Source of the DNA: a virus
Length of the DNA: 30,897 bases
IMG/VR virus record: IMGVR_UViG_3300049024_000036
Coordinates: 1 to 30,897 of that record
Direction: 5' to 3' (one strand)
Shown: positions 6,572-29,474 of the stretch, one piece after another
Numbering within the stretch: the stretch's first letter is position 1
How the letters are laid out: every line of letters starts with the position of its first letter
The notes under the pieces: generated by a model
Databases searched by the model: none
The model's input: only the letters and a program-made list of their open reading frames with translations
Told to the model about the DNA's origin: nothing
Translations under genes and position numbers: made by a program

Positions 6572-7504
6572 TCAGCCGCGGCTGATCACGGCGGTGCCGA
6601 TGTAGCTCGGCTCGACGGCTTCGAAGCCGTAGACCATCAGGCCCTGGACCAAGTAGCCGAAGTCGTTGGGGTTGTCGATCATGCGCAGCTCGGTGATCTG
6701 CGAAGCGAACGTGAGTCCGGCCGAGTGGCCGAACATCGCGTAGGTCGCAGCGGCCGCCGGGCTGTTCTGCGTCAGCAGCGAGCGCGACTGGTAGATCGTG
6801 AAGCGATCCACCTCGCCGACCTTGCCGTTGCGCAGGATCGAGATGCCGTCACCGGTCAGGCTGGCGATCTTCAGATCGCTGCGCTTGATGCGGCTGATGG
6901 CCCAGGGCGGCAGCACCATCCAGCGGCCTTCGTCGCTGACGCTCTGCTCGTCGAGCACCTGGCCGCAGTCGACAACGAAGTCCACTACGTTGGAGGCGCT
7001 GATCGAGCGCGGCGCGGCGGCCGAGCCCATGTCGATGTCGTTGGAGTCGGCGCCGGCCGTGGTGCCGCTGTTGTCGGTCGACACGTCCGCCGGGATCGTC
7101 TCCAGCATGTCGGCATCGGCGGCGATGCGCAGCTTGATGCTGCCGTCGTTCGCAAAGATGTCGGCCATGTCCAGGTCGGACTGGCGGGCGTCCACCGTGC
7201 TCACGGCCACGGCAAAGCTCTTGCCCTGGTCGATCGACAGCGTCACCGAGTTGCGCGAGGGGTACTCGTTCGACAGGCCCTGGCCGATCACGTAGTCGCT
7301 CACGGTCACGTCCGGGATGGTCCGGATGATCACGTTCGAGCCCATGCCCGTGATGTCGCCCTCGTAGTCGGTCGAGGCGATCTCGCCGAAGACGGTGGTC
7401 TTGTAGAACTTCTCGACCAGCTTGCCCGAGTAGACCTCGGGGTCGTAATTGATGGTCCCGCTGGGACCGTAGTCCGGAATACCGGACGCGCGTGGCACAC
7501 CCAT
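6572..7504 (-). CDS. Major capsid (coat) protein, 310 aa
   Basis: The ATG at 7502-7504 follows a strong GGAG site (TTCAGGAGAACACC). The protein begins MGVPRASGIPDYGPSGTIN. The segment LVEKFYKTTVFGEIAS near residue 30, the early VIIRTIPDVTV strand, and the C-terminal MFGHSAGLTFASQITELR and YGFEAVEPSYIG segments fit the coat proteins of podoviruses with HK97-type folds. It lies directly after the scaffold gene, the standard order. It forms the icosahedral shell. No protease gene is seen, so a P22-like assembly without proteolytic maturation is likely, by inference. Confidence 0.85.
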   Translation of the reverse strand: MGVPRASGIPDYGPSGTINYDPEVYSGKLVEKFYKTTVFGEIASTDYEGDITGMGSNVIIRTIPDVTVSDYVIGQGLSNEYPSRNSVTLSIDQGKSFAVAVSTVDARQSDLDMADIFANDGSIKLRIAADADMLETIPADVSTDNSGTTAGADSNDIDMGSAAAPRSISASNVVDFVVDCGQVLDEQSVSDEGRWMVLPPWAISRIKRSDLKIASLTGDGISILRNGKVGEVDRFTIYQSRSLLTQNSPAAAATYAMFGHSAGLTFASQITELRMIDNPNDFGYLVQGLMVYGFEAVEPSYIGTAVISRG

Positions 7505-8916: not shown

Positions 8917-9792
8917 TCAGAGCAGGCGTTCAGCGAGGATGCGTGCGCGCCTTGCGTTCTCGGCCTTGAGGTCCACGGCCTTGGCCGTATCGGGGTCTGG
9001 CGCCGGGTCTTGGGGGGGATTCGTTGAGGGTTCGCGGGCGCTCGGCAGGATTGCCATCAGGGCTTCGTTCAGCGGGTCGCGCGGCGAGTCCATCGGGAGG
9101 GTCAGCGCGAGGTCGTGCTCGATGCGGCCGGTGCTCTCCGACACCAGCGCGATCACCTTGTCGAGCTTGGCGTCGAGCGCTGCGGCGGCGGACTCGATGC
9201 GCGCCATCAGGCGCTGCTCAAGTTCTTCGAGCGGGTCGACCGGCGGCGGTGCGGCCGGTACCGGCTCGGGTGTGGGCGTTGCGACTTCGGCCGGCGGGTC
9301 GGGCAGTGCTGGCGCGACGACAACTGCAACAGGCTCGGCGGGCGGCAGTTCCTGCGTGCGCTTCAGCAGGCCCAGCAGCAGCCCGCTTGCCCGCGCCTTG
9401 GGCTTGGCCGCCTTTGCCGGCTCGTCGCTGGGCTTGGCCTCGTCTTCCTCGCGTGCCGGCTTGAAGGTCAGGTTCTTGTGCTGCTTGCGCTTCTTGCCGT
9501 GCAGCGTCGGGTCCACTCGCGGCGTGTCGCCCGAGGAAACCGTGATCGTGACGGTCGCGCCCTCGGTGGACATGCTGCCCGCCGGTGGGGCTTGGCTGAT
9601 GACGACGCCGACCGCAACGGTGCTGCTCGACTGCTGCACGACCTGCACCGCGAAGCCCGCGAGCTCCAACGCGGCGATGGCGTCGGCCTGCGCCAGCCCG
9701 ACGACATCGGGCACGACGACCGGCTCGGCCGCCTGCCACGCAGTCCCAGCCCAGGCACCAGGGGCCCAGGCACCTGGTGCCCATGCACTCAC
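8917..9792 (-). CDS. PASTA-domain virion protein, 291 aa
   Basis: The GTG at 9790-9792 overlaps the upstream stop as GTGA. Residues 4-19 contain a short repeat (WAPGA, WAPGA, WAGTAW). Residues about 25-88 match the PASTA pattern: VPDVVGLAQADAIAALELAG, then ISQAPPAGS, then VTITVSSG. A Lys-rich segment (KKRKQHKN), Pro/Ala-rich linkers, and a helical C-terminal region with an Ala-rich coiled coil (about residues 185-225) follow. PASTA domains bind peptidoglycan fragments in bacterial kinases and penicillin-binding proteins; in phages they also appear in structural genes. Here the head-gene context suggests a capsid-surface or cell-wall-binding protein. Binding itself is inference. Confidence 0.8.
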   Translation of the reverse strand: MSAWAPGAWAPGAWAGTAWQAAEPVVVPDVVGLAQADAIAALELAGFAVQVVQQSSSTVAVGVVISQAPPAGSMSTEGATVTITVSSGDTPRVDPTLHGKKRKQHKNLTFKPAREEDEAKPSDEPAKAAKPKARASGLLLGLLKRTQELPPAEPVAVVVAPALPDPPAEVATPTPEPVPAAPPPVDPLEELEQRLMARIESAAAALDAKLDKVIALVSESTGRIEHDLALTLPMDSPRDPLNEALMAILPSAREPSTNPPQDPAPDPDTAKAVDLKAENARRARILAERLL

Positions 9793-10739
9793 GGCGAGCC
9801 GCCCCAGGCCGTCGTGGTGCTGCCGTTCTGTTGCACAGGGTCGGCGATCACGTGCGTGATGTTGGCGTCAACCTTGCCCGCGACGGTAAAGGTCAGGCTG
9901 TCGGTCTTGCCCTTGATGTCGTTCGCCGTGTCCTGCAGTGCTGCCACGTCGGCAGCCAAGCTCGCGCCCACCGGCGTGCCGATCAGTGCGTTCGTCCCGG
10001 CTGCGGCCGTCTCGATGGCCGTCTCCAAGCTAGCCACGTCGGTGGCACGCGCCATCGTGTCGAGCTGAGCATCGAGGTTCGCCGAGGCCATGCCGAGCGC
10101 CGTTCGTGTCCCTGAAGCGCTGAGCGGCGCGGTGTAGCCAGCAGTCGCTAGCCGCGAACTCACGTCGGCGTCGATGCGTCCGGTCACCGTGGTGGTGAGC
10201 CCAACGTCGGCCAGCGCCGTATCGGCCGCCGCGTTGGCCGCGTTGCCGATCTCGGTGATGTAGTCGGCAGCCGCAGCGGCGGCGGTGATGACGTTCGAGT
10301 CCATCGCGCCCACGCTGGCGTCCATGCGCCCGCTGACCAGCGCGGCCGGCAGCCGTGTCTGGATGTCCTGGGTGTCGACCTCGATCGCTTCGGCCTGCGT
10401 CTTGAGGGCGGCGATATCCGCCGAGACCGACGCGCCGGCCGGCGCGCCCAGACGCGTGAAGGCGTCGCCCGCCTTGGTGTAGACCTGAACCGTCGCAGGG
10501 ACGGCGGCGGTGCCCACGAAGGTGAATGCGATGTGCGCGCCGTTGGTTTCGGCCTGCGCGGGCGCATACGAGTGGTAGCCGTTTCCCTCGTGCGTGCAGA
10601 TCCCGGAACCCACTGAGCCGATGGCTTGCGTGCCGTTGTCGATGGTCACGTAGACGGTGACGGTGCCGGTGAAGGCCGAGCCGTCAGCGGCGGTCACCAT
10701 CTGCGCGCCGATGCTCTGCCCTGCGGTGTTGATGAGCAT
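9789..10739 (-). CDS. Virion protein with beta N-terminus and repetitive helical body, 316 aa
   Basis: The ATG at 10737-10739 lies two bases after the upstream stop. Residues about 1-95 are beta-type (VTVYVTIDNGTQAIG, IAFTFVGTAAVPATVQVYT). The rest is Ala/Thr/Asp-rich with repeated helical units of the form 'ADIAALKTQAEAIEVDTQDI' and 'LAADVAALQDTANDIKG', suggesting a long trimeric coiled coil as in head fibres or short tail fibres. It lies between structural unknowns in the head module. The fibre role is inferred from composition and repeats. Confidence 0.75.
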   Translation of the reverse strand: MLINTAGQSIGAQMVTAADGSAFTGTVTVYVTIDNGTQAIGSVGSGICTHEGNGYHSYAPAQAETNGAHIAFTFVGTAAVPATVQVYTKAGDAFTRLGAPAGASVSADIAALKTQAEAIEVDTQDIQTRLPAALVSGRMDASVGAMDSNVITAAAAAADYITEIGNAANAAADTALADVGLTTTVTGRIDADVSSRLATAGYTAPLSASGTRTALGMASANLDAQLDTMARATDVASLETAIETAAAGTNALIGTPVGASLAADVAALQDTANDIKGKTDSLTFTVAGKVDANITHVIADPVQQNGSTTTAWGGSP

Positions 10740-10741
10740 GG

Positions 10742-11461
10742 TCAAGCTCCGATGAGTTGGTTTGCGCCGCGCGCCCACGCGGCCTGAAAGCCGCCGCCGC
10801 CGGCCGCACGAATCTCCAAGGCGGCCAGCATCGCCTCGTAGACCGTGCCGGTTTCGTCGAGGTCGGCCCACGGCACCTGGTCGGAGATCGAACTGTCGCG
10901 GCGCTGCATTTGGAAGCAGGCCCAGTTCGGGTTGTTCACGTCGAGGATTTCTGTCCATCCGCTGCCCGGCGTCACCGACTGGGTGCCACTCGACACCGAT
11001 GACACGATGCCCAACACCTCGGACGTGCTGGCCGGCGCCGCGCTCAGCGTGATGGTTTGGGCCCCGCCGCTGCCGGTGTTGGTGCCCGTGGCGGTCGAGC
11101 CGGTCGGCGTCGTGGTGTCATAGCCGGTGTAGCTGATTGCCTGCGCGTACAGGCGGTTTGCGTTCAGCACGCCGACGTTCACCGTGACCGTCATCGACAC
11201 GCCGGTGGTGACCGGTGCGGTCCACACCCTCAAGCCAACTCCCCATCGCGTGGGCGCGGCGCTGAGAACGCGCGAGGTCCAGGTGAGCCCTACTGAGTCC
11301 GTGATGCCGAAGCTCGAACCCTGCAGCCCGCCGTTGCTGCTTTGCACGGCAGCGCCGACCACCACCAACAGGCTGTTGTCGGGCGGTGTGAAACTCCCCG
11401 TCGCTACAGACGAGACGCCGACCCCGGTGGCAAGGCTCTGGACGGTGCGCGCGAGTGGCAT
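10742..11461 (-). CDS. Beta-rich virion protein, 239 aa
   Basis: The ATG at 11459-11461 begins MPLARTVQSLATGVGVSSV, three bases after the stop of the beta-helix gene. The sequence is Ser/Thr/Gly/Val-rich with alternating hydrophobic residues (NSLLVVVGAAVQSS, GVSMTVTVNVGV), typical of a beta-sandwich. The motif VWTAPVTTG, then ISYTGYDTTTP, recalls beta-sandwich proteins found widely in phage and secreted proteins. It has no signal peptide. A minor capsid or fibre-base role is likely from position; not recognised further. Confidence 0.72.
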   Translation of the reverse strand: MPLARTVQSLATGVGVSSVATGSFTPPDNSLLVVVGAAVQSSNGGLQGSSFGITDSVGLTWTSRVLSAAPTRWGVGLRVWTAPVTTGVSMTVTVNVGVLNANRLYAQAISYTGYDTTTPTGSTATGTNTGSGGAQTITLSAAPASTSEVLGIVSSVSSGTQSVTPGSGWTEILDVNNPNWACFQMQRRDSSISDQVPWADLDETGTVYEAMLAALEIRAAGGGGFQAAWARGANQLIGA

Positions 11462-11464
11462 CGC

Positions 11465-12928
11465 TTAGAGGGCGCAGACGCCCGTCGTGGCATCGGCTCC
11501 GATGCGATACACCGTGCCCACCTCGGTGGCGCCGGCGTAGACCTGCACGGCCCGGCTGTGCTGGTGGGCCACGGCCAGGCACACGACGTTGTCACGCACC
11601 GCGGCGCCGCTGTCGGGATCGTCACCGGTGCCCACCGAGCGGTCGGGGATCACGATTCCGAGGTGCTGCGTGTCGCGGGCGCGCCGGATCACGTTGCGCT
11701 CGACGACCACGCCGGGCGCCGAGGTCATGCAGATCGAGCACAGGCCGAGGTTCGTGATGGTGTTGCCGCGCACCACCACATTGCGGAACCACTCTGCCGA
11801 GTCATAGCCCGGATTGATGCTGATCCCGTAGCAGCCGCCGTCGCTGTCCACCTGCGTGATCGTGTTGCCTTCAATCAGCAGGCCGTCCCATTGGCCGTGC
11901 ACCGTGAAGTTGCCACCGGTGCACACGCCGTTCACCACCGAGTTGTTGATGAACCGGTTGTTGCGCACCACGCCGTTCGTGCCGCGCCCGCCGAGGTAGA
12001 TCGCGTGCTCGAAGGTGCTGCCGGTGAAGTTGTTGCCCTCGAAGGTGTTGCCCTCGACCAGCAGGTCGTGCGCGTCGCCGAGGATTCCCATCTGCGAGTT
12101 GCGGCTGATGACGTTGTTGCGGATCACGATGCCGGCGTTCCCACGCTCGCCGGCATTGCCCATGTGGATGCCCAGCGCGAAGCCGGTGATCTCGTTGCTT
12201 TCGATGGTGACGTTGCGCACCTGGTTGCGCAGGTGGAAGCCCCATGAGCCGGTCGATGCAGATCCGTCGAGCCGCAGGTTGCGGAAGGTGTAGCCGCCAT
12301 CGAGCGTCAGGTCGTTGAAGCGGCCGAACTGGAAGGCGTAGAAGGTGCCGCCGGCACGCAGCAGCGGCGCCGGGCCCGTGCCGTAGGCGTCGAACACCAA
12401 CGGGGCTTCAGGCGTCGCGTTGGGGTTCTGCAGTTGCACGTTGAAGCCGGCCCATGCCCCGCCGCGCACGAACAGCACGCGCGCACCAGCCGGCAGCGCG
12501 TTGACATCCAGGCCGACCAGCGTGCGCTTCGGCGCGCTCGGGCTGGTGCCGGCGTTGGCGTTGTCGCCCGGCACGCAGCCTGCGGCGGCGCCTGGCTGGC
12601 AGTCGGACAGGTACACGGCTGGGCCGGTGCTGTCCGGCGGCGGGGGGGGCGGCGCCGGCGGCGCGGCCACGGTCGAGAACAGCACCTCGGTGATGGTGCG
12701 GCAGCCGTAGCGCTGCACCAGCGGCGTGGCCGTGTTCGTCGCGCGCGCTGCGCTCGCCGCGGCACTTGCAGCGGTCAGGCACTCGGCCTCGGTGGCGTTC
12801 TGGCTCAGGCGCGCGGTGCCCTGGTAGAGGTCGTGCGTGCCTCGGTTGACGGTCTCGGTCGTGACCTGTGCAGTGGCAGCCATGACGACGGCCAGCAGGG
12901 CGAGCGAGGTGGAGAGTTTGCGGAGCAT
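11465..12928 (-). CDS. Secreted-type right-handed parallel beta-helix protein, 487 aa
   Basis: I chose ATG at 12926-12928 because AAAGG lies six bases upstream and a signal peptide starts exactly there: basic MLRKL, hydrophobic SLALLAVVMA, and a likely cut after A20 (ATA before QV). A short Cys-containing N-domain (C50, C76) and a Pro-run at about residues 90-98 lead to a long region of PbH1-type coils with recurrent NNxI and GNTI/ENN patterns (VIRNNVISRN, LLIEGNTITQ, VVERNVIRR). Such helices occur in polysaccharide lyases, tailspikes and adhesins. It sits between portal and head genes, but Sec export is unusual for a virion part. It may be a host-envelope-acting cargo gene. Confidence 0.8.
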   Translation of the reverse strand: MLRKLSTSLALLAVVMAATAQVTTETVNRGTHDLYQGTARLSQNATEAECLTAASAAASAARATNTATPLVQRYGCRTITEVLFSTVAAPPAPPPPPPDSTGPAVYLSDCQPGAAAGCVPGDNANAGTSPSAPKRTLVGLDVNALPAGARVLFVRGGAWAGFNVQLQNPNATPEAPLVFDAYGTGPAPLLRAGGTFYAFQFGRFNDLTLDGGYTFRNLRLDGSASTGSWGFHLRNQVRNVTIESNEITGFALGIHMGNAGERGNAGIVIRNNVISRNSQMGILGDAHDLLVEGNTFEGNNFTGSTFEHAIYLGGRGTNGVVRNNRFINNSVVNGVCTGGNFTVHGQWDGLLIEGNTITQVDSDGGCYGISINPGYDSAEWFRNVVVRGNTITNLGLCSICMTSAPGVVVERNVIRRARDTQHLGIVIPDRSVGTGDDPDSGAAVRDNVVCLAVAHQHSRAVQVYAGATEVGTVYRIGADATTGVCAL

Positions 12929-12962
12929 GGAAGACCTTTCGATCTGTGGTTGAGGCATGGGG

Positions 12963-18108: not shown

Positions 18109-18564
18109 TCAGGCGTCGATCCATTCAGCCTTCTTCAGGCGCTTGGTGTGTGCGCCCAGCTCCAGCACCTTCGACGACAGGCTGCCGTAGTCGTGGCAGA
18201 CGACCCAGCGGCCGCTGTTCGAGTCGTCGGCCGCAATGCCCCAGTTCGTGCGCTTGAGGTCGTTGCACCAGGCCGGCACGCGCTCTGGCAGCTCGTTGAG
18301 CCGCACGGGCTGCGTGCGCTCCATGACCAGGATGTGGCCGTTCGGGCTGATCCATTTGCACTCGGCGAACCAGCGCGACGCCTCGGTGCCGACCACCTGC
18401 TGCCAGATGGCCCATTCGATGATGTTCTCGAAGCTACCGGTGCGCTCTTCCACCTTGAGCACGACATCGGGACGGATCGTGCACGCGAAAACCTTGCGGC
18501 TGCACCCCTCGCCGATGAGGTCACCGCACAGCAGGTTGAATGCTTCTTCGTAGGCTGCGCTCAT
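18109..18564 (-). CDS. Minimal protein-kinase-like protein, 151 aa
   Basis: ATG at 18562-18564 overlaps the preceding stop as ATGA. The short protein shows kinase-core elements in order: glycine loop GEGCSRKV (18-25), VLKVE with K37, a helix with E46/E50, hinge-like ILVMERTQP (78-86), NDLKRTNWG with D102, K104 and N107 in the canonical Asp-x4-Asn spacing, and HDYG with D125 in the place of DFG. It then ends after about 25 residues, so the large helical C-lobe of normal kinases is missing. It may phosphorylate a sugar, a nucleotide or a protein, or be a pseudokinase-like binder. It is coupled to the glycosyltransferase cassette. Confidence 0.72.
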   Translation of the reverse strand: MSAAYEEAFNLLCGDLIGEGCSRKVFACTIRPDVVLKVEERTGSFENIIEWAIWQQVVGTEASRWFAECKWISPNGHILVMERTQPVRLNELPERVPAWCNDLKRTNWGIAADDSNSGRWVVCHDYGSLSSKVLELGAHTKRLKKAEWIDA

Positions 18565-18725
18565 TGCGGCTTCAACTCCCCGGATTCGTACTTCTCGCGC
18601 TGGTCGAGCGCGTTGTGGATCCACAGGCCGGGCGTCTCGTCGTCCTCGACCGGTAGACACCAGCAGGTGCGGAGGGCGTCGTGCTCGCGCAGGTCTCCGA
18701 TGGGCACCACGTGGCACTCGTTCAT
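18561..18725 (-). CDS. Hypothetical small protein, 54 aa
   Basis: The ATG at 18723-18725 overlaps the glycosyltransferase stop as ATGA, and its own stop overlaps the kinase-like start as ATGA. The protein begins MNECHVVPIGDLREHDALR, contains CWCLPVEDDE and WIHNALDQREKYESGE, and is acidic. This resembles short phage proteins with a HxxxxxxC-W-C core of unknown function. It is too short for an enzyme; a small partner protein or adaptor within the cassette is possible. Confidence 0.68.
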   Translation of the reverse strand: MNECHVVPIGDLREHDALRTCWCLPVEDDETPGLWIHNALDQREKYESGELKPQ

Positions 18726-19411
18726 AGCTGGGCGGCCTCCTGCCAGATCTCGTCGTGCCTTGCGCCCTTCCAGCCTGGCAACCAAGGCCCACCCAGCGTG
18801 AAGTGCGCGATGGCCGGATTGGGTGGCTTCGGCTGCTCGCCCACCAGCCAGTTCCATTCGTGCGACAGCTCGCCGATCTCGCTGTCGTGCAGCCAGTAGA
18901 AGGCGTGCAGGTCGCGTCCTGGCCGCGTGTTGACGTCGTGCAGCGTGAGGCGGCGGTTCGCGGGGTGGTCGCAGTTGAAGAGCATCACGCTCGACCAGTT
19001 CTTGCGCCAATAGGCCACCTGCGGTTGCGTGTCCATCTTGAAGCTCTCGCGCGGCTCGTACTGGTGCTTCACCACCATGACGGCCTTGGTCGGGTCGGCA
19101 ACTTCCAGCAGCCGGTGCACGTCACGCAGAAAGACCACGTCGCAGTCGGTGAACAGGGCCCAGCCGCCGGTGCACAGGATTGGTACGAGGAAGCGGCTTA
19201 CCGCGAACTCGGTGGACTGGCTGGCGTCGCTCACGAAGTCGTGCATCCAGCCGCGGCGATCCACGGGGCGCCAGAGCAGGCCCTTGATGCGCAACGAGTG
19301 CTCGACCAGAGGCTCGGCCTCGATGCCGGACTGCCGGCGCAGGGTCTCGGCCGCCACCTTGTAGGCCGCCTCTTCGCGGCGGTCGTGGCCCATGAAAACG
19401 CGCAGGGTCAT
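18722..19411 (-). CDS. GT-A-type glycosyltransferase (GT8-like), 229 aa
   Basis: ATG at 19409-19411 overlaps the preceding stop as ATGA. The protein begins MTLRVFMGHDRREEAAYKV, the first strand of a GT-A fold. Residues around 68-94 give EFAVSRFLVP followed by FTDCDVVFL, where D89 and D91 form the metal- and nucleotide-sugar-binding DxD. The C-terminal HFTLGGPW near residue 208 recalls the HFxG-x2-KPW motif of GT8. It should transfer a sugar from a nucleotide donor to an unknown acceptor. There is no signal peptide or membrane segment, so it works in the cytoplasm. It pairs with a GT9-like gene upstream. Confidence 0.8.
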   Translation of the reverse strand: MTLRVFMGHDRREEAAYKVAAETLRRQSGIEAEPLVEHSLRIKGLLWRPVDRRGWMHDFVSDASQSTEFAVSRFLVPILCTGGWALFTDCDVVFLRDVHRLLEVADPTKAVMVVKHQYEPRESFKMDTQPQVAYWRKNWSSVMLFNCDHPANRRLTLHDVNTRPGRDLHAFYWLHDSEIGELSHEWNWLVGEQPKPPNPAIAHFTLGGPWLPGWKGARHDEIWQEAAQL

Positions 19412-20157
19412 GTCAGAACGTCCTTCAGGTTCGCCGCCACCTCGTCGACCGAGATGCGCAGCATGGATTCGATGCAGCCGGCGCACTGCTGGCGCGAGCC
19501 GCAGGCCTTGCCGGCGTGCCGCAGGTTGCGGTGCTGCGGGTAGCCCGTCACCGTCGGGTCGATGAACTCGGACCACAGCACCACGGCGGGCACGCCCACG
19601 GCGGCGGCGGCATGGTGAAGCGCGCCCTCGGTTCCCGCAAACGCGCGGCACACCGACAGGACGGCGGTAGCCTCGCGGAAGGTGGCGGTCTCGACGAACG
19701 CGGCGCGATGCACCCTTTGCACGCCACGTGGGCCGCACTGCACGAAGCGCACACCGGCCAGCAGCGGGTGTTCGAGCAGCGCCTCCCAGCGGCGGAACAC
19801 CCAGGCCTTGTTCGTGTGCGCCTGGGCCTTCACGTTGGGCTCGACCAGCACCATGCCCCGGTACTTCTCGGCGAAGGCCAGTTCTTCAGGCGTGAACACG
19901 ATCTCGGCCGGCTGCGGCTCGTAGGGCCGCCAGCACCACCGCGTGGCCGCCTTGGCGCTGATGTACGGCCGCGTGCCCGGCGCGTTGACCAGGCGGGCGG
20001 CACCGGGCTCGTGCTGGCGCAGGATGTAGGGCAGCCCATCCCACAGATCGGACCACTGCGGCCGGTTGTGGCGATCCACGATCACGACCCTGCGGCCGAT
20101 GCGTTCGTGCAAGGCACGGGCCTCACCCGCTGCCATGAGCTGGTCACCGATGCCCAT
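19408..20157 (-). CDS. GT-B-type glycosyltransferase, GT9/heptosyltransferase-like, 249 aa
   Basis: Start ATG shares one base with the preceding TAA (TAATG). N-terminal MGIGDQLMAAGEARALHER is the family's first strand and glycine-rich loop. The C-terminal Rossmann half has FAGTEGALHHAAAAVGVPAVVLW, the typical nucleotide-sugar site of GT9 enzymes, followed by a Cys-rich segment (GKACGSRQQCAGC) also known from heptosyltransferase relatives. The 249-residue length is short for a full GT-B enzyme (usually 320-360), so one of the two domains is reduced. The sugar donor and acceptor are unknown. Heptose or other core-sugar transfer is one possibility. Confidence 0.75.
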   Translation of the reverse strand: MGIGDQLMAAGEARALHERIGRRVVIVDRHNRPQWSDLWDGLPYILRQHEPGAARLVNAPGTRPYISAKAATRWCWRPYEPQPAEIVFTPEELAFAEKYRGMVLVEPNVKAQAHTNKAWVFRRWEALLEHPLLAGVRFVQCGPRGVQRVHRAAFVETATFREATAVLSVCRAFAGTEGALHHAAAAVGVPAVVLWSEFIDPTVTGYPQHRNLRHAGKACGSRQQCAGCIESMLRISVDEVAANLKDVLT

Positions 20158-20666
20158 TAGGGCGTCTCCACCAGCACGAAGGGCAAGCCCCCGCTGTGCT
20201 CGCTGAAGGTGTCCATCCACCACTGAAGCGGCTGAATGGTCACGTGCAGGTTCGTCGTGCCGTCGGGAAAGGTCTTCTTCGCCGGGCGGCAGCACACCGA
20301 GGCCCACACGAACTTCTTGGCGTGGCCGAAGAGGTTGGCGACGAAGGCGTCGACGTCGGCCTCGCGCACGTGCTCCAACACGTCCGAGCACAGCACACCG
20401 TCGAACTTGCCGTGCGGCTTCTCGTCGTGCTCGGGGAATGCGGGGTCATAGAGCGTCACGTCGAACCAGCGCAGCCCGAGTTCGCGGTGCAGCCGATGCT
20501 GGTGACGCCACGCATCGCCGGCACCGCAGCCGAAGTCGAGCAGCGTCTTCGCCTGGTGCTCGCGCACGAGCTTGGCCAGCTGGTCGCGGTGCTGAAGGAT
20601 CGACAGCCCCCGGAACTGCTGGCCGCCCGCGGCCATCTCGCGGTACAGCGGAATCAACGAATCCAT
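20157..20666 (-). CDS. Class I SAM-dependent methyltransferase, 169 aa
   Basis: I chose ATG at 20664-20666 (MDSLIPLYREMAAGG); a GGAG site lies about ten bases upstream, and the alternative ATG at 20693 would deepen the overlap. Motif I is LLDFGCGAGDAW, motif II ends VTLYDPAFPEHD, and the motif IV region is FDGVLCSDVLEHV. A Trp-rich C-terminal element (LQWWMDTF) follows. It should methylate a small molecule, glycan or nucleic acid; the acceptor domain is minimal. The start overlaps the second methyltransferase by 13 bp. Confidence 0.8.
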   Translation of the reverse strand: MDSLIPLYREMAAGGQQFRGLSILQHRDQLAKLVREHQAKTLLDFGCGAGDAWRHQHRLHRELGLRWFDVTLYDPAFPEHDEKPHGKFDGVLCSDVLEHVREADVDAFVANLFGHAKKFVWASVCCRPAKKTFPDGTTNLHVTIQPLQWWMDTFSEHSGGLPFVLVETP

Positions 20667-21256
20667 TTCTTGGCCCTCCAGTAGCCGATCCATTCGCCGA
20701 GGTGGCCCTCGGTTTCCTCTTCGAGGTTGAAGCCCAGCGAGCGCAGCACCGCGTCGAGGTCGTGCGGCACGTTGTTCGAGCGGCGGTCCACCACCACGGG
20801 CCCACCAGGTGGTAGCCGCAGCACCACGAGACGGTCGCAGACGTCTTCGACGAGGCGGCGCAGCGCGGCGCTGGGGTCAGGCAGCTTGTGCAGGATCGAA
20901 AGCGCCATCACCACGTCATAGAGCCCCGTCGGCTGATAGGTGCTGAGGTCGCCGACTTCGAACGTGCACCGCTTGTCGCCGATGGCCAGGCGCTGGGCGT
21001 CACGCACGCGCTCGGGCACCAGCTCGACGCCGTGCAAACGACTGGCGCCGGCCTTCAGCATCTCCATGCCGATGAGTCCTTCAGCGCAGCCAGCGTCCAG
21101 CACCGACAGCGGCCGCCCGCGCTTGGCACACGTGCGGAACTCGTCGACCAGTGGCCGCAAGCCGATCATTTGCTGCACCAGAGTGCGTTCGTGCCCTGCG
21201 GCCCGGCCCGTGGGGAACCAGGATCGCGCGTGTTTCTTCGTGGTGGTCGTGCTCAT
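20654..21256 (-). CDS. Class I SAM-dependent methyltransferase, 200 aa
   Basis: ATG at 21254-21256 overlaps the preceding stop as ATGA. A basic N-terminus (MSTTTTKKHARSWFPTGRA) is followed by motif I VLDAGCAEGLIG, acidic residues in GVELVPER, then FEVGDLSTY and VVMALSILHKL, the standard order of a Rossmann-fold methyltransferase. A terminal segment ends GYWRAKKWIR. It is adjacent to the other methyltransferase but not obviously its duplicate: the N- and C-termini differ. Both are likely to act on the product of the neighbouring glycosyltransferases; that link is inference from coupling. Confidence 0.8.
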   Translation of the reverse strand: MSTTTTKKHARSWFPTGRAAGHERTLVQQMIGLRPLVDEFRTCAKRGRPLSVLDAGCAEGLIGMEMLKAGASRLHGVELVPERVRDAQRLAIGDKRCTFEVGDLSTYQPTGLYDVVMALSILHKLPDPSAALRRLVEDVCDRLVVLRLPPGGPVVVDRRSNNVPHDLDAVLRSLGFNLEEETEGHLGEWIGYWRAKKWIR

Positions 21257-21993
21257 GGGTTCAGCCGGCGCCAGGCGGTGCCGTCCTCCAGTTCGTCAAG
21301 GGTGAATTCGTGGTCGGCGAGGACGTTGAGGAAGTGGCGGCGCTCGTCGGGCTCGGCGCACTTGAGGTCGGCCAGGGCGTGGTGGTGGCTGACCATCACG
21401 GGCACACCGGCCAGCACTGCCTGCACTGCGGCGGCTGACGTGTGGGTCACGCACATGGCCGCGCCTGCGAGCGCATCGCCGAGCGATTGCAGCGCCTGGG
21501 CCTTGTTGCGGTTCCACGCTCGCCATATCACCGGCACCTCGGTCCCTCGCATCAGCCGCTCGCTGGCTTGCAGCCAACCGGGGTCCAGGGCGAGCAGGCG
21601 CATGTGCAGGTCGCTCTGCTCGACGAAGAGGAAGGCGCCGTCGCGTGGCTGCCAGTTGCGGCGCCAGGGCTCCCACCTCCAAGGCTTGATGTCCAGGCCC
21701 AGCGCCTCGAAGCGCTTGCCGTCCGACGTCCACGCACGCGGGGCTACCTGAAGGCGGTTGCGGGTGACGCGAAAGCGCTGGCCGCGCGTGGCGTCGAAGT
21801 AGCTGTTGTCGATGTAGAACCAGGGGCGCGGCTTGCGCGGCGTGAAGCCGGTGAAGTACTGCCACGACGTGGCGTTCGAGTCCTTCACCCCCGCGAACAC
21901 GACGCCCTCGGCCTCACGCGGCGCACCTGCGACGAACGCTTCGCACAGCCGGCGGCTCTTGTCTTTGCCGGGGACGGGGAAGGCGGTCAGCAC
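21253..21993 (-). CDS. GT-B-like transferase, 246 aa
   Basis: I chose GTG at 21991-21993 because GAGGGGG lies five bases upstream; the longer ATG start (22044) lies deep in the previous gene. The protein begins VLTAFPVPGKDKSRR and shows YIDNSYFDATRGQRFRVTRN near residues 75-95, a segment I have seen in phage proteins related to capsule glycosyltransferases. The C-terminal half has CVTHTSAAAVQAVLAGVPVM, the small-residue loop of a GT-B nucleotide-binding domain. No catalytic acid is evident. The true acceptor is unknown; export-type or sugar-transfer functions are both possible. Confidence 0.65.
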   Translation of the reverse strand: MLTAFPVPGKDKSRRLCEAFVAGAPREAEGVVFAGVKDSNATSWQYFTGFTPRKPRPWFYIDNSYFDATRGQRFRVTRNRLQVAPRAWTSDGKRFEALGLDIKPWRWEPWRRNWQPRDGAFLFVEQSDLHMRLLALDPGWLQASERLMRGTEVPVIWRAWNRNKAQALQSLGDALAGAAMCVTHTSAAAVQAVLAGVPVMVSHHHALADLKCAEPDERRHFLNVLADHEFTLDELEDGTAWRRLNP

Positions 21994-22280
21994 GGCACCC
22001 CCTCGAACTTCGCGAACCCGCTCGGCGTCTTGCAGTAGCTGCACACCTCGGGCTCGATGGGGGCGCCGCAGTTGCGGCAGTACGCAGCCATGCGGCCCTT
22101 GACGATTCGGCAGCCGTCGATCATCACCACGTCTTCACGCGTCAACGCGACCATCGTCAGCCTTTGACCCTCCTCTCGAATCAGGCGCGTATAGGCAAGC
22201 GGGTGCAACACCACATGGGCGGGCTCATACCCAGCGGCTCGCTGGCCGGCGATGTAGCCAAGAAGGGCATCGATCAGCAC
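21987..22280 (-). CDS. Small protein with C-terminal zinc ribbon, 97 aa
   Basis: GTG at 22278-22280 is preceded by GGGAGGT seven bases upstream, deciding the start. Both ends overlap the neighbours by 7 bp. The protein begins VLIDALLGYIAGQRAAGYEP and continues with VVLHPLAYTRLIREEG; a knuckle pair YCRNCGAPI and VCSYCKTPS near residues 65-85 should bind one zinc ion. It sits between two GT-B-like genes. The first half resembles small phage proteins that are otherwise found near head genes, so it may be a stray adaptor. Function unknown. Confidence 0.72.
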   Translation of the reverse strand: MLIDALLGYIAGQRAAGYEPAHVVLHPLAYTRLIREEGQRLTMVALTREDVVMIDGCRIVKGRMAAYCRNCGAPIEPEVCSYCKTPSGFAKFEGVPC

Positions 22281-23029
22281 GCCAACACCTCCCGAAACGC
22301 ATCGCCCCGCGCTACCTCGTCGATGTCCCACATGGCCCAGGCCATGCGCTCGAACATCGGCAGGCGCAGATCCACGGGACTGAGCCCACGACCCACGAGC
22401 GTGGCCGCCGGCGCACCGATCCACCCGGGCATGCCGTAGAAGCACCAGCAGCCCATCAGCATCGCCTGAAGGGCCGCGCCGCTCGACCACGTGACGACGG
22501 CCGCCGCGTTGGCCAGGTCTTCAGCCAGACTCGGCCCGGTCGTGCTGGTGCCAGGGTGCCGGCGGATGCGAGCGCGCATCGAGCGCGCTGTCTCTGCGGT
22601 CCAGTGGTCGGGCGCCCGAAGGTCGGGCTCACCGATGCCGCGTTGCGCCAGCAGCACCGTTTCGCCCATGAGCCCACGCATCGGCGCCAGCTCGACGCCC
22701 CAGGATGCCCAGCGCTCGGGGCCGCCTTGTGGCCAGCGGCCGCGCCCGTTGTGGTGGCTGCGCGAGAGGGCGAACCAGCGGCGGCCCTGCCACTGCGCGC
22801 CGAGGTAGCCGTTCTCCGCCACCAGCACCGTGGCGCGGGCCTGTTCGAAGCGCTTGGCGTGCGTGTGGTGGGCGCCCATGCGGTTCCAAACCACCAGCAC
22901 GTCGCCCGGCTTCGGGTCGTCGATGCGGGCGTGCACGGTGAAGCCGCAGGCCTCCAGGCCGGCGGCGAACAGCGCGGCCTCGGCGTGCTTGTTGGGCTGC
23001 GCCAGCAGCATGAGGGCGGCGCGGCTCAC
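22274..23029 (-). CDS. GT-B-like glycosyltransferase, 251 aa
   Basis: GTG at 23027-23029 overlaps the preceding stop as GTGA, with GAGG upstream. The protein begins VSRAALMLLAQPNKHAEAALF. Residues about 30-70 (GFTVHARIDDPKPGDVLVVWN) look like the first Rossmann strand pair. Near residue 180, VTWSSGAALQAMLMGCWCFYGMPGW parallels the CVTHTSAAAVQAVLAGVPV loop of the 246-residue protein and FAGTEGALHHAAAAVGVPA in the GT9-like one. The family is remote from well-known ones, and the donor is unknown. It lies between the GT42-like and zinc-ribbon genes. Confidence 0.65.
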   Translation of the reverse strand: MSRAALMLLAQPNKHAEAALFAAGLEACGFTVHARIDDPKPGDVLVVWNRMGAHHTHAKRFEQARATVLVAENGYLGAQWQGRRWFALSRSHHNGRGRWPQGGPERWASWGVELAPMRGLMGETVLLAQRGIGEPDLRAPDHWTAETARSMRARIRRHPGTSTTGPSLAEDLANAAAVVTWSSGAALQAMLMGCWCFYGMPGWIGAPAATLVGRGLSPVDLRLPMFERMAWAMWDIDEVARGDAFREVLAC

Positions 23030-23640
23030 CGCAACACCTCGCCCAATTCCCCGGTCTCGAACCACTTCAACGCGCTCTCGGGCGTGCAGTTCGTCACCTC
23101 GACGTTCATTGCGTGGGCATCCTCTGCCACGGCCTTGAACTTGTGCAGCCACTCCGCGTATTGCTGCACCTGCACGAGCGGCGCCGGGTGCTGGCCGAAC
23201 CAGTGCGCCCTGCCCTTCACGTCGCGCATGTCGAAGCCCAGTAGCACGATGCGCTTGGCACCGAACAGCACGGCCAGGTTCAGGGCCTGCGCGCCGCTGT
23301 TGCCGTTGAGATGCACACGCTCGTCGCCCAGGCCCTTGCGGTCGGTGCTGCGCACGTACCTGCAGCGGTGGCGCTCGGCGGCCGCGCGGTCCCCGGTCCA
23401 CCACGTGCCGCGGCAGGCCTTCAGCAGCGGCCGGTAGTGCTTCACCGCCAGGTAATCGCCGAAGTAGTGGACATCGGCCCACGGTGCGCGCTCGGCCGTG
23501 TTGTTCACCGTGATGACGTGGCAGCGCTGCGCCAGACGTGCTTCGAGCACGAGCGCGAGCTGGTCGTCGCTGAGGCTGGGCCCGCTTGCCACGATGACGG
23601 CGGGCACCTGATCCCAGCCGTCGGCCTTGTAGTTGTTCAT
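23026..23640 (-). CDS. DUF115/GT42 sialyltransferase-like protein, 204 aa
   Basis: ATG at 23638-23640 overlaps the preceding stop as ATGA. The N-terminal VIVASGPSLSDDQL (about residues 14-27) matches the glycine-proline-serine opening shared by GT42 sialyltransferases and DUF115/MptE-like proteins. Later NGNSGAQALNLAVLFGAKRIVLLGFDM has the NSG-x-A-x-x-A pattern and LLGFD typical of the same fold, which binds a cytidine nucleotide. It has no signal peptide. A sugar- or pterin-diphosphate-dependent transferase is likely; the exact reaction is unknown. It opens the cassette on its upstream side. Confidence 0.7.
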   Translation of the reverse strand: MNNYKADGWDQVPAVIVASGPSLSDDQLALVLEARLAQRCHVITVNNTAERAPWADVHYFGDYLAVKHYRPLLKACRGTWWTGDRAAAERHRCRYVRSTDRKGLGDERVHLNGNSGAQALNLAVLFGAKRIVLLGFDMRDVKGRAHWFGQHPAPLVQVQQYAEWLHKFKAVAEDAHAMNVEVTNCTPESALKWFETGELGEVLR

Positions 23641-23891
23641 CGGTTCGGGTGTCCCTTGGTGCGCTTGGGGCGCGGGTTCTTGGATCGCTTGAGGCGATGG
23701 CCGACGCTCGACAGGTGCCACTTGCCGCAGCTCGTGCAGCGGTAGGTGCGGCGGTGCGAGCCATCGCGGCGCACGCGCTTCGCGGCCTTCAGGGCAAGCG
23801 TCGCGGTGTCGAACCCGGCTTTGCCGAGGCAGTGCGACTCGGGCGGGTTGTTCTCGCCGGTGCGCGAGGGCTGCACGGTGCGGTCGGTCAC
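23637..23891 (-). CDS. Small basic zinc-binding protein, 84 aa
   Basis: GTG at 23889-23891 overlaps the preceding stop as GTGA. After an N-terminal linker, residues about 28-60 carry KAAKRVRRDGSHRRTYRCTSCGKWHLSS, with C-x2-C and a nearby His that are likely to bind zinc, and the tail (KRSKNPRPKRTKGHPNR) is strongly basic. This layout is a common phage small zinc-finger protein, probably binding DNA or RNA. Its stop couples to the GT42-like gene. Confidence 0.75.
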   Translation of the reverse strand: MTDRTVQPSRTGENNPPESHCLGKAGFDTATLALKAAKRVRRDGSHRRTYRCTSCGKWHLSSVGHRLKRSKNPRPKRTKGHPNR

Positions 23892-26979: not shown

Positions 26980-27200
26980 GCGCACCCCCTCGACATCAGT
27001 TGTCGGATGCGCGCCTTGTCCGCTGCGCAGCGCAGGCGCTGGCATTCGCAGCAGGACGCGTTGCGCGTGTACCTCTCGGCGACGTGGCCGTGCACACAGG
27101 GCTTTCCGTCTCGATAGCGCGAGCGGCCTTCAGACGCCGCTCGGGTGCGCAAGTCCACCTCAGCCGGCACGAGGGGTGCGGGGAGCGTGGTTTCAGTCAT
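26976..27200 (-). CDS. Small HNH-type or zinc-finger-like protein, 74 aa
   Basis: ATG at 27198-27200 overlaps the PP-loop gene stop as ATGA; an ATG two codons upstream is possible but less consistent. The protein begins MTETTLPAPLVPAEVDLRT, with GKPCVHGHVAERYTRNASCCECQRLRC, where C-x-H-x-H and C-x2-C pairs look like a zinc knuckle. This is the layout of short phage proteins sometimes labelled HNH-like, but the catalytic Asn/His core is not visible. A DNA-binding zinc protein is the safe reading. Its end couples to the DUF1376 start by TTGA. Confidence 0.75.
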   Translation of the reverse strand: MTETTLPAPLVPAEVDLRTRAASEGRSRYRDGKPCVHGHVAERYTRNASCCECQRLRCAADKARIRQLMSRGCA

Positions 27201-28156
27201 TCGCACAGTCCGTAGGCGCTTTCGCAGGCCTTCGGCTCCTCAGAGATGCGGATCCAGTCCAGCGTCTTGCCGCCCTGACCGGTTTGGCTCCAGCCGACGA
27301 CGTTGTGGATGCCGCGGCGGTTCAGGTGGGCGTCACGGTGCGGATCTGGGAAGAAGCTCGCTTCCTGCTGCTTGGCGGCGAGCGAGACGGCCACTTCCCA
27401 ATACGCGATGCGCTCGATGTGGTTGGGGAAGCGCTTCGAGATTTCGAGCACTTCGTCTTTCGAGGCGTTGACGCACGGCATGCAGCCGACGCGCGTCATG
27501 CCCTGGCGATAGAGCGGGTTCGGGTCCAGGCCGACGATGCGGTGCGCCTCGAACACGTCCGACGCGGTCCAGCGCAGGATCGGTCGGTAGTTGTAGAGAC
27601 CACCTCCCGCGACTTCGAAGAGGCGGTCGCACGCCGGCACGTTGGCCGTGCAGGCGAGGCGAGACCGGCGCGCTTCGCTCTCGTCGATGCGGACGCCTTG
27701 CCAAGCCCAAACGGCTTCGCACTCACCGCGCTCGATGAACCCGAGCTGGTGCTCGACCAGCGGTTTCGTCTTCAGAAACTCGGTGCAGAACTGCGCGCGG
27801 CGCGACGGGAATCGACCTTTCCAGAGGCAGAGGTCGAGGAAAGGGTTGCCCGTGGGCACAAGCGCGGCCACGGCGCGATCCACGTCGGCCTGAGACAGGC
27901 CCTCGGCTGGCCAGTGCTCGCGGATGTACTCGCGCCGGCGCAGCACTTCGGCGGTGAGGTCCGCCCGCAGCGTTACGACCTCGATGCCAAGGTGCCGAGC
28001 CATGTACGCCAGCCACTCCGGGGTGCTCTCGTGCTCGTTGCCGGTGTCGCAGAAGGCGAAGCGCAGCGACTCCCGCGGCTGGGTTTCGAGTGCGAGGATG
28101 GCCGTGGCAGCGCTGTCCTTGCCACCGCTGATGCTCACGCAGTGAATGATCGTCAC
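27197..28156 (-). CDS. PAPS-reductase-family / DndC-like PP-loop protein, 319 aa
   Basis: GTG at 28154-28156 overlaps the methylase stop as GTGA, with GGAGG upstream. Residues 10-15 are SGGKDS, the PP-loop that binds ATP or adenylyl substrate, then AFCDTGNEHESTPEW, VTLRADLT, and AQFCTEFLKTKPL. Cysteine pairs CTANVPAC and GCMPC could hold an iron-sulfur cluster. A later TRVGCMPCVNASKDEV segment is typical of phage PAPS-reductase-like proteins and of DndC, the DNA phosphorothioation sulfur-transfer protein. It is fused in coupling to an adenine methylase. The substrate is unknown: DNA sulfur modification, tRNA thiolation or sulfate metabolism are all possible. Confidence 0.8.
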   Translation of the reverse strand: MTIIHCVSISGGKDSAATAILALETQPRESLRFAFCDTGNEHESTPEWLAYMARHLGIEVVTLRADLTAEVLRRREYIREHWPAEGLSQADVDRAVAALVPTGNPFLDLCLWKGRFPSRRAQFCTEFLKTKPLVEHQLGFIERGECEAVWAWQGVRIDESEARRSRLACTANVPACDRLFEVAGGGLYNYRPILRWTASDVFEAHRIVGLDPNPLYRQGMTRVGCMPCVNASKDEVLEISKRFPNHIERIAYWEVAVSLAAKQQEASFFPDPHRDAHLNRRGIHNVVGWSQTGQGGKTLDWIRISEEPKACESAYGLCE

Positions 28157-29016
28157 GCTGCGACCTCCGCGAACAGCCCGCCATGCGACTGCGCCAGAGC
28201 GGCACTGCATGCGGGGTTGAGCCAGACGACTTCGGTGCGCATGCGTGCACGGTCGGCAACGTGGCTGCGCTGATGCCGCTCCCAGCCCTTGAACAGTGCT
28301 TCGTACAGGCCACTCGGATAGCCCGACACGACCACCATGCCGCTGCACGCATGCAGTTGCGCCGCCAGTGCCTCGTGCTCCGCGTCGGTCATCTCGAAGC
28401 GGTATCCGTTGGTCGTGCTGCTGCCCTTGGACAGGGCAGAACGCGTGCTGTGCACGTATGGCGGATCGCAGTAGATCAGCGTGTTCGGTGCGTCCATGCG
28501 GCGGATCACCGGGAGCGCGTCGTCGCTTTCGAGCAGTACTCCCGCCAAGCGCGCGCGGAAGTCGTCGATCGACTCTGGCCAGGTGCGCCACTCGGCCGAC
28601 GGCAGGGCTCGACCATCGGTCAGGCGCGATCGAAATCCCGTGCGCGTTGTGCGGCAGGCCGAGTCCGACCCATGCCCCATGAACGAGCGAACAACCAGCC
28701 GATGGGCGGCATCAATGCGATCGGTCGGTTCCCCGAACGCCCACTCCAACTCGGCGCGGGCGTACGGCGTCAAGGCGGCGCGGCGCTTCAGCTCGGCGCC
28801 AGCCTCTGGATCTCGCAGTACTCGGAAGAATTCAACGATGCGATCGTCGCGGTCGTTCAGACATTCGGCCGGCACGCGTGGCTTGAGCAGCAACACGGAC
28901 GCCGCGCCGCAGAACGGCTCGACGTAGGCTTGGTGCGGCGGGAAGAACTGCAAGATCCACGGGGCCAGCCGGAACTTGCCGCCGTGGTATCGAAGCGCGG
29001 GGCGGGTGACGGTCAC
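28153..29016 (-). CDS. DNA N6-adenine methyltransferase (Dam/D12 class), 287 aa
   Basis: GTG at 29014-29016 overlaps the preceding stop as GTGA. The protein begins with TRPALRYHGGKFRLAPWI (motif X, SAM binding), then AYVEPFCGAASVLLLK (motif I, FxG), and later IYCDPPYVHS near residue 187 (motif IV, catalytic DPPY). The target-recognition part lies between, with the charged LKRRAALTPYARAELEWAF segment. It should methylate adenine in a short double-stranded site, either to protect phage DNA or to regulate phage promoters. It lies between the DUF6884-like and PP-loop genes. Confidence 0.87.
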   Translation of the reverse strand: MTVTRPALRYHGGKFRLAPWILQFFPPHQAYVEPFCGAASVLLLKPRVPAECLNDRDDRIVEFFRVLRDPEAGAELKRRAALTPYARAELEWAFGEPTDRIDAAHRLVVRSFMGHGSDSACRTTRTGFRSRLTDGRALPSAEWRTWPESIDDFRARLAGVLLESDDALPVIRRMDAPNTLIYCDPPYVHSTRSALSKGSSTTNGYRFEMTDAEHEALAAQLHACSGMVVVSGYPSGLYEALFKGWERHQRSHVADRARMRTEVVWLNPACSAALAQSHGGLFAEVAA

Positions 29017-29474
29017 GCTGCAACGTCCTCAAACAGCACCGGCTGCTCAAGCTGCTGGTTCAGCCACTGCAAGCGCTGGCCGATCTGCATGCCCTGCATG
29101 GGTTGGTGAACGGTGCACCACGCCTCGACCAGCGGCACCCACCCCGCGTAGTCCTGCCCGGCCAGAAGCGTGATCTCCAGGCGGTCGGCGCCGTAGAAGG
29201 TGGTCAGCGCGTCGATGTCCATCGCCACGCTTTTCGCCCACGCCTGCCGCGCCTCTGGCTTCAGCGAGGCCATCGCGCAGTCGTAGGGCGCGAGCTGGCT
29301 GTCGGGCTTGATGAGGCCATACGCGGCCGACAGCACATGCCAGTCGTGGCGCTGCTGGCTGGCCCACTGCGCGGCCTTGCGGAACAGCGCCGAGCGATAG
29401 AGCTCGCGTGCCGGGGCAATACGCCCCAGCTTCTCGGCGCAGCAGCCGATAAGGGTTAGGTGGTGGGTCTTCAT
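29013..29474 (-). CDS. DUF6884-like protein, 153 aa
   Basis: ATG at 29472-29474 overlaps the preceding stop as ATGA. The protein begins MKTHHLTLIGCCAEKLGRI, then PARELYRSALFRKAAQWA, LSAAYGLIKPDSQLAPYDCA, ITLLAGQDYAGWVPLV, and IGQRLQWLNQQL. This order (opening strand with Cys, ELYxSxLFRK, LSxxYGL, LLAGxxYxxWVP) matches the family I know as DUF6884, whose function I do not know. Its company (a methylase and a PP-loop protein) suggests a DNA-related role. The family name is from recall. Confidence 0.75.
   Translation of the reverse strand: MKTHHLTLIGCCAEKLGRIAPARELYRSALFRKAAQWASQQRHDWHVLSAAYGLIKPDSQLAPYDCAMASLKPEARQAWAKSVAMDIDALTTFYGADRLEITLLAGQDYAGWVPLVEAWCTVHQPMQGMQIGQRLQWLNQQLEQPVLFEDVAA

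Follow-up and report, generated by a model that had tools for sequence, protein, structure and literature searches.

A run of ten overlapping genes in a phage genome fragment (positions 18109-23640 of the 30,897-nucleotide IMG/VR record IMGVR_UViG_3300049024_000036, hereafter the window) contains a cassette of seven glycosyltransferase-like and methyltransferase genes whose order is kept in other phages. With moderate confidence, we propose that this cassette O-glycosylates a virion protein with an LPS-core-like sugar, using the sugar pool of a Gram-negative host. A previous reading of this DNA from its letters had left the product open among phage DNA, virion protein and host surface; the evidence presented here favors a virion protein, including over host LPS, and lends very little support to DNA hypermodification.

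Gene layout and the conserved core

All ten genes are encoded on the minus strand and run from 23640 to 18109, with successive overlaps of 4, 7, 7, 4, 13, 1, 4, 4 and 4 bp in that direction. The sequence-only reading had the strand, the coordinates and these overlap sizes (4, 7, 13 and 1 bp) right, but counted nine genes where ten are present. The gene preceding the run (23637-23891) likewise overlaps it by 4 bp, and the gene downstream starts at 17993, leaving a gap of 115 bp, or of 10 bp if an alternative start at 18098 is used. Neither a sigma70-type promoter nor an intrinsic terminator on the coding strand was found between 16500 and 27300, which is weak evidence in DNA of 67% GC.

The core comprises, in this order, a DUF115/MptE-like (PF01973), GT42-like protein (23026-23640, 204 aa; phrog_4603, 3.5e-39), two KpsC-like proteins assigned by predicted fold, GT-B1 (22274-23029, 251 aa) and GT-B2 (21253-21993, 246 aa), two class I SAM-dependent methyltransferases, MT1 (20654-21256, 200 aa) and MT2 (20157-20666, 169 aa; phrog_24759, 1.7e-21), a heptosyltransferase-like GT9 (19408-20157, 249 aa), and a GT8-like protein with a DxD motif (18722-19411, 229 aa; phrog_28018, 3.3e-54). 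At least three of these seven families occur together in 153 of 238 distinct loci and all seven in 21, with identical order in 20 of the 21. Gene distances are correlated, MT1 homologues are present in full cassettes, and complete cassettes span podo-, T7-like and siphovirus backbones. The initial idea of a coupled glycosyltransferase/methyltransferase cassette is thus borne out, with relatives keeping the genes together in fixed order rather than carrying them singly. Because most of the ten proteins match curated or phage families and the seven cassette families co-recur, we regard the gene set as real rather than a product of chance. The cassette is probably a mobile, co-transcribed unit that travels between phages.

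No earlier description of the seven-gene cassette was found in the literature searched. Caulobacter phages C1 (gp162-167) and CcrColossus (gp126-131) also have DUF115, GT-B1, GT-B2, GT8, MT2 and GT9 genes clustered, but their run differs from that of the window in having six genes, without MT1 and in another order, and these genes are mostly annotated as hypothetical. A portal scan for close phage relatives returned a single 8-kb contig (L171), in which GT8 and the kinase-like gene were not detected across the 1.5 kb that precede the terminase genes, a stretch too short to exclude a cassette.

The kinase-like, zinc and small proteins, which the sequence-only reading had included in the system, fall outside this core. 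The small kinase-like protein (18109-18564; phrog_4301, 2.1e-29) is coupled to the run but was rejected as a pathway member because its family is also found elsewhere, in 90 phage records; in the two records inspected, NP1 and Pan1, no annotated glycosyltransferase lies beside it. Also rejected was the 54-aa protein (18561-18725; phrog_2864, 1.5e-14), which is translationally coupled but belongs to another uncharacterized phage family that likewise occurs elsewhere, with no demonstrated specificity for the cassette. Among the first 88 cassette loci, no relative was found of the 97-aa protein with a C-terminal zinc ribbon (21987-22280; DZR, 3.3e-4, under the cut-off), which was therefore rejected as a core part.

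Genomic position and the likely acceptor

Among 121 cassettes, 82 have a head, neck or tail gene no more than 3 kb away; 31 are placed exactly between portal, MCP or protease genes and neck genes, and 6 between terminase and portal. The major capsid protein of the window is encoded at 6572-7504. The T7-like cassettes (19 of the 121) adjoin helicase rather than capsid genes, and marine cassettes are found in replication or tail-fiber regions, away from capsid genes. In cultured Caulobacter phages, the six-gene run sits between tail-fiber and lysozyme genes, and in D3-type phages, a DUF115 gene lies directly behind the major capsid gene. D3 orf12 was considered as a GT-B homologue and rejected because it has no sequence similarity to the GT-B proteins, so the D3 set consists of DUF115, an unknown and a methyltransferase only. 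Genomic position is the single line of evidence that suggests a virion protein as the acceptor.

The main alternative, possible but rather unlikely, is a role in reshaping the LPS core or some other surface glycan of the host, during late infection or in lysogens, which would result in superinfection exclusion or in progeny being kept off debris. The enzymes resemble those of LPS inner-core (waa) assembly, which are cytoplasmic, in combining a Kdo-type transferase fold, GT8 and a GT9 with a WaaF profile match; they differ in being phage-borne, often in late modules, and in having Kdo-type enzymes that resemble KpsC, not WaaA. Chromosomal GT8 relatives adjoin KdsB-KdsA (L164) or, judged by eye, are part of a surface-polysaccharide cluster (L095), the window's nearest relative is on an integrase-carrying contig that reads as a prophage, and host O-chain modification has been proposed for pelagimyophage GT8 genes (PMC7029224). 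These points must be weighed against the sites in head-neck modules and the terminase coupling, which point to late expression, and against the large Caulobacter phages, which carry the cassette in a tail-lysis block. The run also differs from O-antigen conversion systems of the gtrABC type, as it includes neither an O-antigen flippase nor a membrane glycosyltransferase, and membrane-spanning-like segments are absent from the ten proteins (top 19-residue hydropathy, 1.55).

Transferase folds, motifs and probable donor sugars

GT-B1 and GT-B2, the two least certain members of the set, are both predicted to have transferase folds. With AlphaFold models of pLDDT 90.3 and 89.8, respectively, the best 24 PDB matches of GT-B1 are all retaining beta-Kdo transferases (top match 6mgd, 1.4e-5) and the best 8 of GT-B2 are WbbB, KpsC and KrkA (top match 4e-4), with TM-scores to retaining beta-Kdo transferases that are moderate for both models, at about 0.4-0.6; a PDB sequence search with GT-B1 gave no match. 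In addition to this predicted fold, GT-B1 shares with KpsC (GT107), WbbB (GT99) and KrkA (GT140) the (K/R)XHP CMP-binding motif (R in 121, H in 128 and P in 133 of 135 sequences), a conserved Ser, and mostly the Gln of the QXXXD site (106 of 135) (PMC12887879, PMC10148158). Unlike in these enzymes, the nucleophile position is Gly in 127 of 135 sequences with no Asp at +4, the QXXXD register being judged by position after the first strand of the C-terminal domain. GT-B2 departs further, with R-x-W-N in the window for R-x-H-P, W or K replacing His in most sequences (W-N or K-P for HP), and Asp not among the commonest residues at the nucleophile site; both phage-encoded proteins are also shorter, at about 250 aa. 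We therefore rejected GT-B1 and GT-B2 as canonical Kdo transferases, as the nucleophilic Asp is missing. GT-B1 probably has a CMP-sugar-binding glycosyltransferase fold without this residue. With the nucleophile missing from GT-B1, and HP as well from GT-B2, the sugar may differ or one of the two may be inactive.

For the remaining transferases, the GT9 profile matches WaaF (1psw, 2.3e-6), the Asp of its N-terminal GxGD is present in 89 of 90 sequences, and ADP-heptose is its probable donor. The DxD of GT8 is kept in 170 of 171 sequences, with a weak PDB match to GT8 (0.57). MT1 (Methyltransf_25, 38.8 bits) and MT2 (Methyltransf_23, 43.6 bits) exceed the cut-off of 27 for their class I SAM Pfam profiles. 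Curated Pfam cut-offs are not reached by the matches of GT9 (Glyco_transf_9, PF01075; 1.4e-4, 21.8 of 22 bits), GT8 (Glyco_transf_8; 18.9 of 24.3 bits) or the DUF115-like protein (PF01973; 2.1e-7, 31.3 of 34.6 bits, with 11 of 15 homologues matching at 0.01).

The DUF115-like protein has no match in NCBIfam; in the PDB, its profile matches the sialyltransferase CstII (2e-4), and D62 and H146 are kept in 126 of 127 sequences. Maf domains (pfam01973) are similar to CstII, and Maf enzymes can use both Kdo and CMP-nonulosonates to O-glycosylate Ser/Thr (PMC11339370). The matches to PF01973, below its cut-off, and to CstII tentatively link the phage protein to the Maf flagellin glycosyltransferases and the GT42 enzyme CstII, but at about 200 aa it has just one domain and lacks the N- and C-terminal domains of Maf. 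We propose that it is a CMP-sugar transferase, akin to a Maf-like domain, that primes the glycan.

Genes for Kdo biosynthesis accompany relatives of the cassette: KdsA (TIGR01362, above the curated cut-off) is present in 14 of the 15 marine GT8/GT-B2 contigs that extend far enough to include it, against 14 of 50,697 phage records overall, a linkage drawn from one related marine phage group and a few bacteria. A KdsB-like gene adjoins KdsA in most of the marine contigs, and a Rhodobacteraceae genome contig carries KdsB-KdsA-GT8 in tandem. No sugar-nucleotide gene was recognized in the window, and the donors are probably CMP-Kdo or a similar acid, ADP-heptose and a nucleotide-hexose, all precursors of the host LPS core.

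It is improbable, to our mind, that a virion protein is modified with an acidic sugar other than Kdo, such as a nonulosonic acid (sialic, pseudaminic or legionaminic type) or another host CMP-sugar. Pseudaminic acid is the sugar that one KpsC homologue transfers, sialyltransferases also have the RxHP motif (PMC12887879), CstII is itself a sialyltransferase, and GT-B1 lacks the Kdo-transferase nucleophile; however, the linked biosynthesis genes, in a search that covered those for Kdo, are KdsA and KdsB-like.

It is very improbable that the DUF115-like protein is instead an MptE enzyme akin to pyrophosphokinases and that the cassette makes a small molecule or other conjugate: the Pfam family bears the MptE name and a weak PDB match to the 6-hydroxymethyl-7,8-dihydropterin pyrophosphokinase 8sd5 (0.27) was found, but the PDB profile prefers CstII and the neighboring genes encode glycosyltransferases of CMP-sugar fold. 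Some phages glycosylate their DNA, and genes for a Dam-type methylase, a PAPS-reductase-like protein and DUF6884 are present in the window, but hypermodification of phage bases (a sugar on a modified base) against restriction is barely credible, as the folds match those of CMP-sugar transferases whose targets are glycans or proteins, early DNA-modifying genes lie outside the cassette, and, as the sequence-only reading had noted for the latter two, no hydroxymethylase, thymidylate-synthase-like or base-oxidase gene was recognized among the window proteins scanned (weak evidence, the window being a fragment).

A proposed pathway for virion glycosylation

In the virion glycosylation that we favor, the DUF115-like protein would transfer an acidic sugar of nine or eight carbons, for which Kdo supplied by host CMP-Kdo is the most likely candidate, to a hydroxyl of a virion protein, a priming step modeled on Maf transfer to flagellin Ser/Thr. 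The KpsC-like GT-B proteins would then lengthen the glycan with further CMP-activated sugar, GT9 would add heptose (from ADP-heptose) and GT8 a hexose, and MT1 and MT2 would cap hydroxyls by methylation. The phage particle would thereby be coated from host LPS-core sugars, which may benefit it through shielding or adsorption.

As a tentative and somewhat doubtful generalization, an interchangeable operon may be shared by many unrelated phages that infect Gram-negative bacteria, giving their capsid or tail an O-methylated coat that imitates the host LPS inner core (Kdo, heptose, hexose). A single-domain Maf-like enzyme would start this glycan, and KpsC-fold transferases working without an Asp nucleophile would lengthen it. 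Protein-linked glycans on phage particles have been documented mainly in mycobacteriophages. Mycobacteriophages Che8 and Rita, whose capsids carry covalent glycans (PMC11256854), resemble the phages studied here in encoding glycosyltransferases, whereas the cassette is distinguished by Gram-negative-type hosts, LPS-core-like enzymes and a fixed seven-gene order.

If our proposal is correct, virion glycosylation would be a widespread trait, given that well over a hundred phage contigs, with apparently Gram-negative hosts, carry the fixed-order cassette. It would also account for genes, some of D3 and P1 among them, whose usual annotation is 'alpha-2,3-sialyltransferase' or hypothetical, and would add to the Kdo-transferase fold a new branch with an unexplained mechanism.

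Conservation and layout of the cassette

The window is a linear virus record of 30.9 kb from a podo-like phage, in which the minus-strand gene order leads from early genes (DUF6884, Dam-type methylase, PAPS-reductase-like, primosome-like and RusA) through the cassette span at 18109-23640 to late genes (small and large terminase, portal, beta-helix protein, scaffold-like protein, major capsid protein and virion proteins). Ten genes overlap in the span, and our computed overlaps agree with those given in the sequence-only reading. Inserted between GT-B1 and GT-B2, the two KpsC-like proteins, is a gene (21987-22280) for a 97-aa protein that has a zinc ribbon at its C-terminus, for which no relatives were found among the cassette loci searched; L093, a Rubrivivax contig, has no room for it there. 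The early genes for DUF6884 (29013-29474), a D12-class adenine methylase (28153-29016) and the PAPS-reductase-like protein (27197-28156) also overlap, and 27197-29474 is possibly a DNA-modification or anti-defence set. Amid the head genes, the PASTA-domain protein (8917-9792) and the right-handed beta-helix protein (11465-12958) are possible host-contact proteins, and the 9789-10745 protein has one domain also present in L080 and L083-L085.

When viral contigs were scanned with GT8 and GT-B2, the relatives carried DUF115, GT-B1, GT-B2, MT1, MT2, GT9 and GT8 in unchanged order. Later scans were seeded with GT9, MT1 and GT-B1, and an HMM survey over every fetched locus, collapsed to 238 distinct loci, found three or more of the seven families in 153, five or more in 66 and all seven in 21; as the seeds were cassette genes, these counts show the company the cassette keeps and not its frequency among phages. 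Gene order was identical in 20 of the 21 complete cassettes. The window is among these, as are 12 contigs where the cassette lies close to a T7-type helicase and five of siphovirus type that carry portal or capsid genes. For the seven genes, pairwise distances were correlated across the 20 cassettes (Mantel p<0.05 in 20 of 21 tests), as would be expected of genes that mostly move as a set. Among cultured phages, Caulobacter phages C1 (gp162-167) and CcrColossus (gp126-131) carry a core of DUF115, GT-B1, GT-B2, GT8, MT2 and GT9. We are certain that the cassette is real and conserved.

Parts of it also occur in genome contigs: six, mostly binned as Verrucomicrobia (L119, L127, L129, L134, L138, L140), have GT-B2, GT9 and GT8 with order kept, and Mesorhizobium genomes (L095-L110) have a GT8 homologue (~50% identity) and no other cassette genes, located in L095 in an apparent surface-polysaccharide cluster, as judged by eye.

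Probable transferase identities and candidate donors

The cassette proteins likely have transferase folds. The DUF115 protein matches PF01973, with a score below the curated cut-off, and the CstII sialyltransferase, a pairing shared with Maf flagellin transferases; these have a CstII-like PF01973 domain at their centre and are able to attach Neu5Ac or Kdo to Ser/Thr (PMC11339370). GT9 matches the WaaF profile with an invariant GxGD Asp, the GT8 DxD is present in 170 of 171 sequences, and MT1 and MT2 score above cut-off as ordinary class I methyltransferases.

For the AlphaFold models of GT-B1 and GT-B2 (pLDDT 90), the top PDB matches were only retaining beta-Kdo transferases, which are defined by a QXXXD nucleophile, a (K/R)XHP CMP-binding motif and a glutamate base (PMC12887879, PMC10148158, PMC9587256). 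Across 135 GT-B1 sequences, RxHP and Ser are nearly invariant and Gln is common, whereas the position of the nucleophilic Asp is Gly in 127 and Asp in none, so that GT-B1 appears to keep a CMP-sugar fold without the known double-displacement residue. In GT-B2, Arg and Ser are kept and His is replaced by W or K in most sequences. Because the nucleophile test failed, we do not assign either protein to the known Kdo-transferase families.

Of the 15 marine phage contigs that hold both GT8 and GT-B2 and extend at least 9.5 kb beyond GT8, 14 carry KdsA (TIGR01362, over the curated cut-off) 8-11 kb downstream of GT8, and one additional contig holds a KdsA fragment; among phages generally KdsA is scarce (14 of 50,697 records). 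A KdsB-like gene, scoring below the curated cut-off, adjoins KdsA in most of these contigs. Synechococcus phage S-SCSM2R has annotated KdsB and KdsA close to GT8, a Rhodobacteraceae contig has consecutive KdsB-KdsA-GT8, and phage DSL-LC06 carries a related set upstream of terminase annotated as KpsC, heptosyltransferase and sialyltransferase. CMP-Kdo and ADP-heptose are LPS precursors in Gram-negative hosts, and the KdsA/KdsB linkage and DSL-LC06 annotations point to these LPS-core-type sugars as plausible donors by gene association. Marine phage contigs also encode, immediately upstream of GT8, a fusion of a cytidylyltransferase-like domain with a mannose-6-phosphate-isomerase-type cupin (L049 9214-9978).

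Genomic position and the putative acceptor

Position was counted for 121 cassettes flanked on one side by 3 kb or more of sequence, with gene detection limited to a small number of seeds. A head, neck or tail gene lies within 3 kb in 82, 31 cassettes sit exactly between portal, capsid or protease genes and neck genes, and 19 are near a T7-type helicase. DUF115 is about 300 bp or less from an HK97-type capsid match in L016 and L020, L057 reads terminase, cassette, portal, and the prophage-like Mesorhizobium locus L112 runs capsid-DUF115-GT8-GT9-MT1-GT-B2-portal. A smaller set is found in phages D3, PAJU2, Psp6 and Eowyn: DUF115, then an unknown gene and a third gene that is methyltransferase-type or unannotated. 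In three of the four phages it is surrounded by capsid and connector genes.

Such positions suggest that the cassette is expressed late and that its acceptor is a virion protein. Host LPS as the acceptor is also compatible with them, and other authors have proposed it as the target of pelagimyophage GT8 genes (PMC7029224), but we consider it less likely here than a virion protein; putative virion decoration is the best reading of the cassette.

Separately, L057 encodes between GT8 and the portal gene (10711-12660) a protein of 649 aa whose C-terminal domain is MptE-like (DUF115), and similar proteins occur in L084 and L170. In phage P1 (L180 2429-3615), pmgO is homologous to DUF115 and pmgP is weakly MptE-like (3.4e-4), both annotated with putative morphogenetic functions only.

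Exchange within the cassette

The window's nearest relative, L093, is a contig from a Rubrivivax metagenome-assembled genome; as read by eye, an integrase marks one end and bacterial genes follow past the other. Its capsid, portal and terminase are 83, 77 and 72% identical to those of the window. For GT-B1 the identity is just 32%, and the L093 protein groups with the T7-like set (47-49%); another protein occupies the GT9 position. Parts of the pathway are being swapped while the phage backbone stays stable, the pattern that a diversifying surface glycan would be expected to show.
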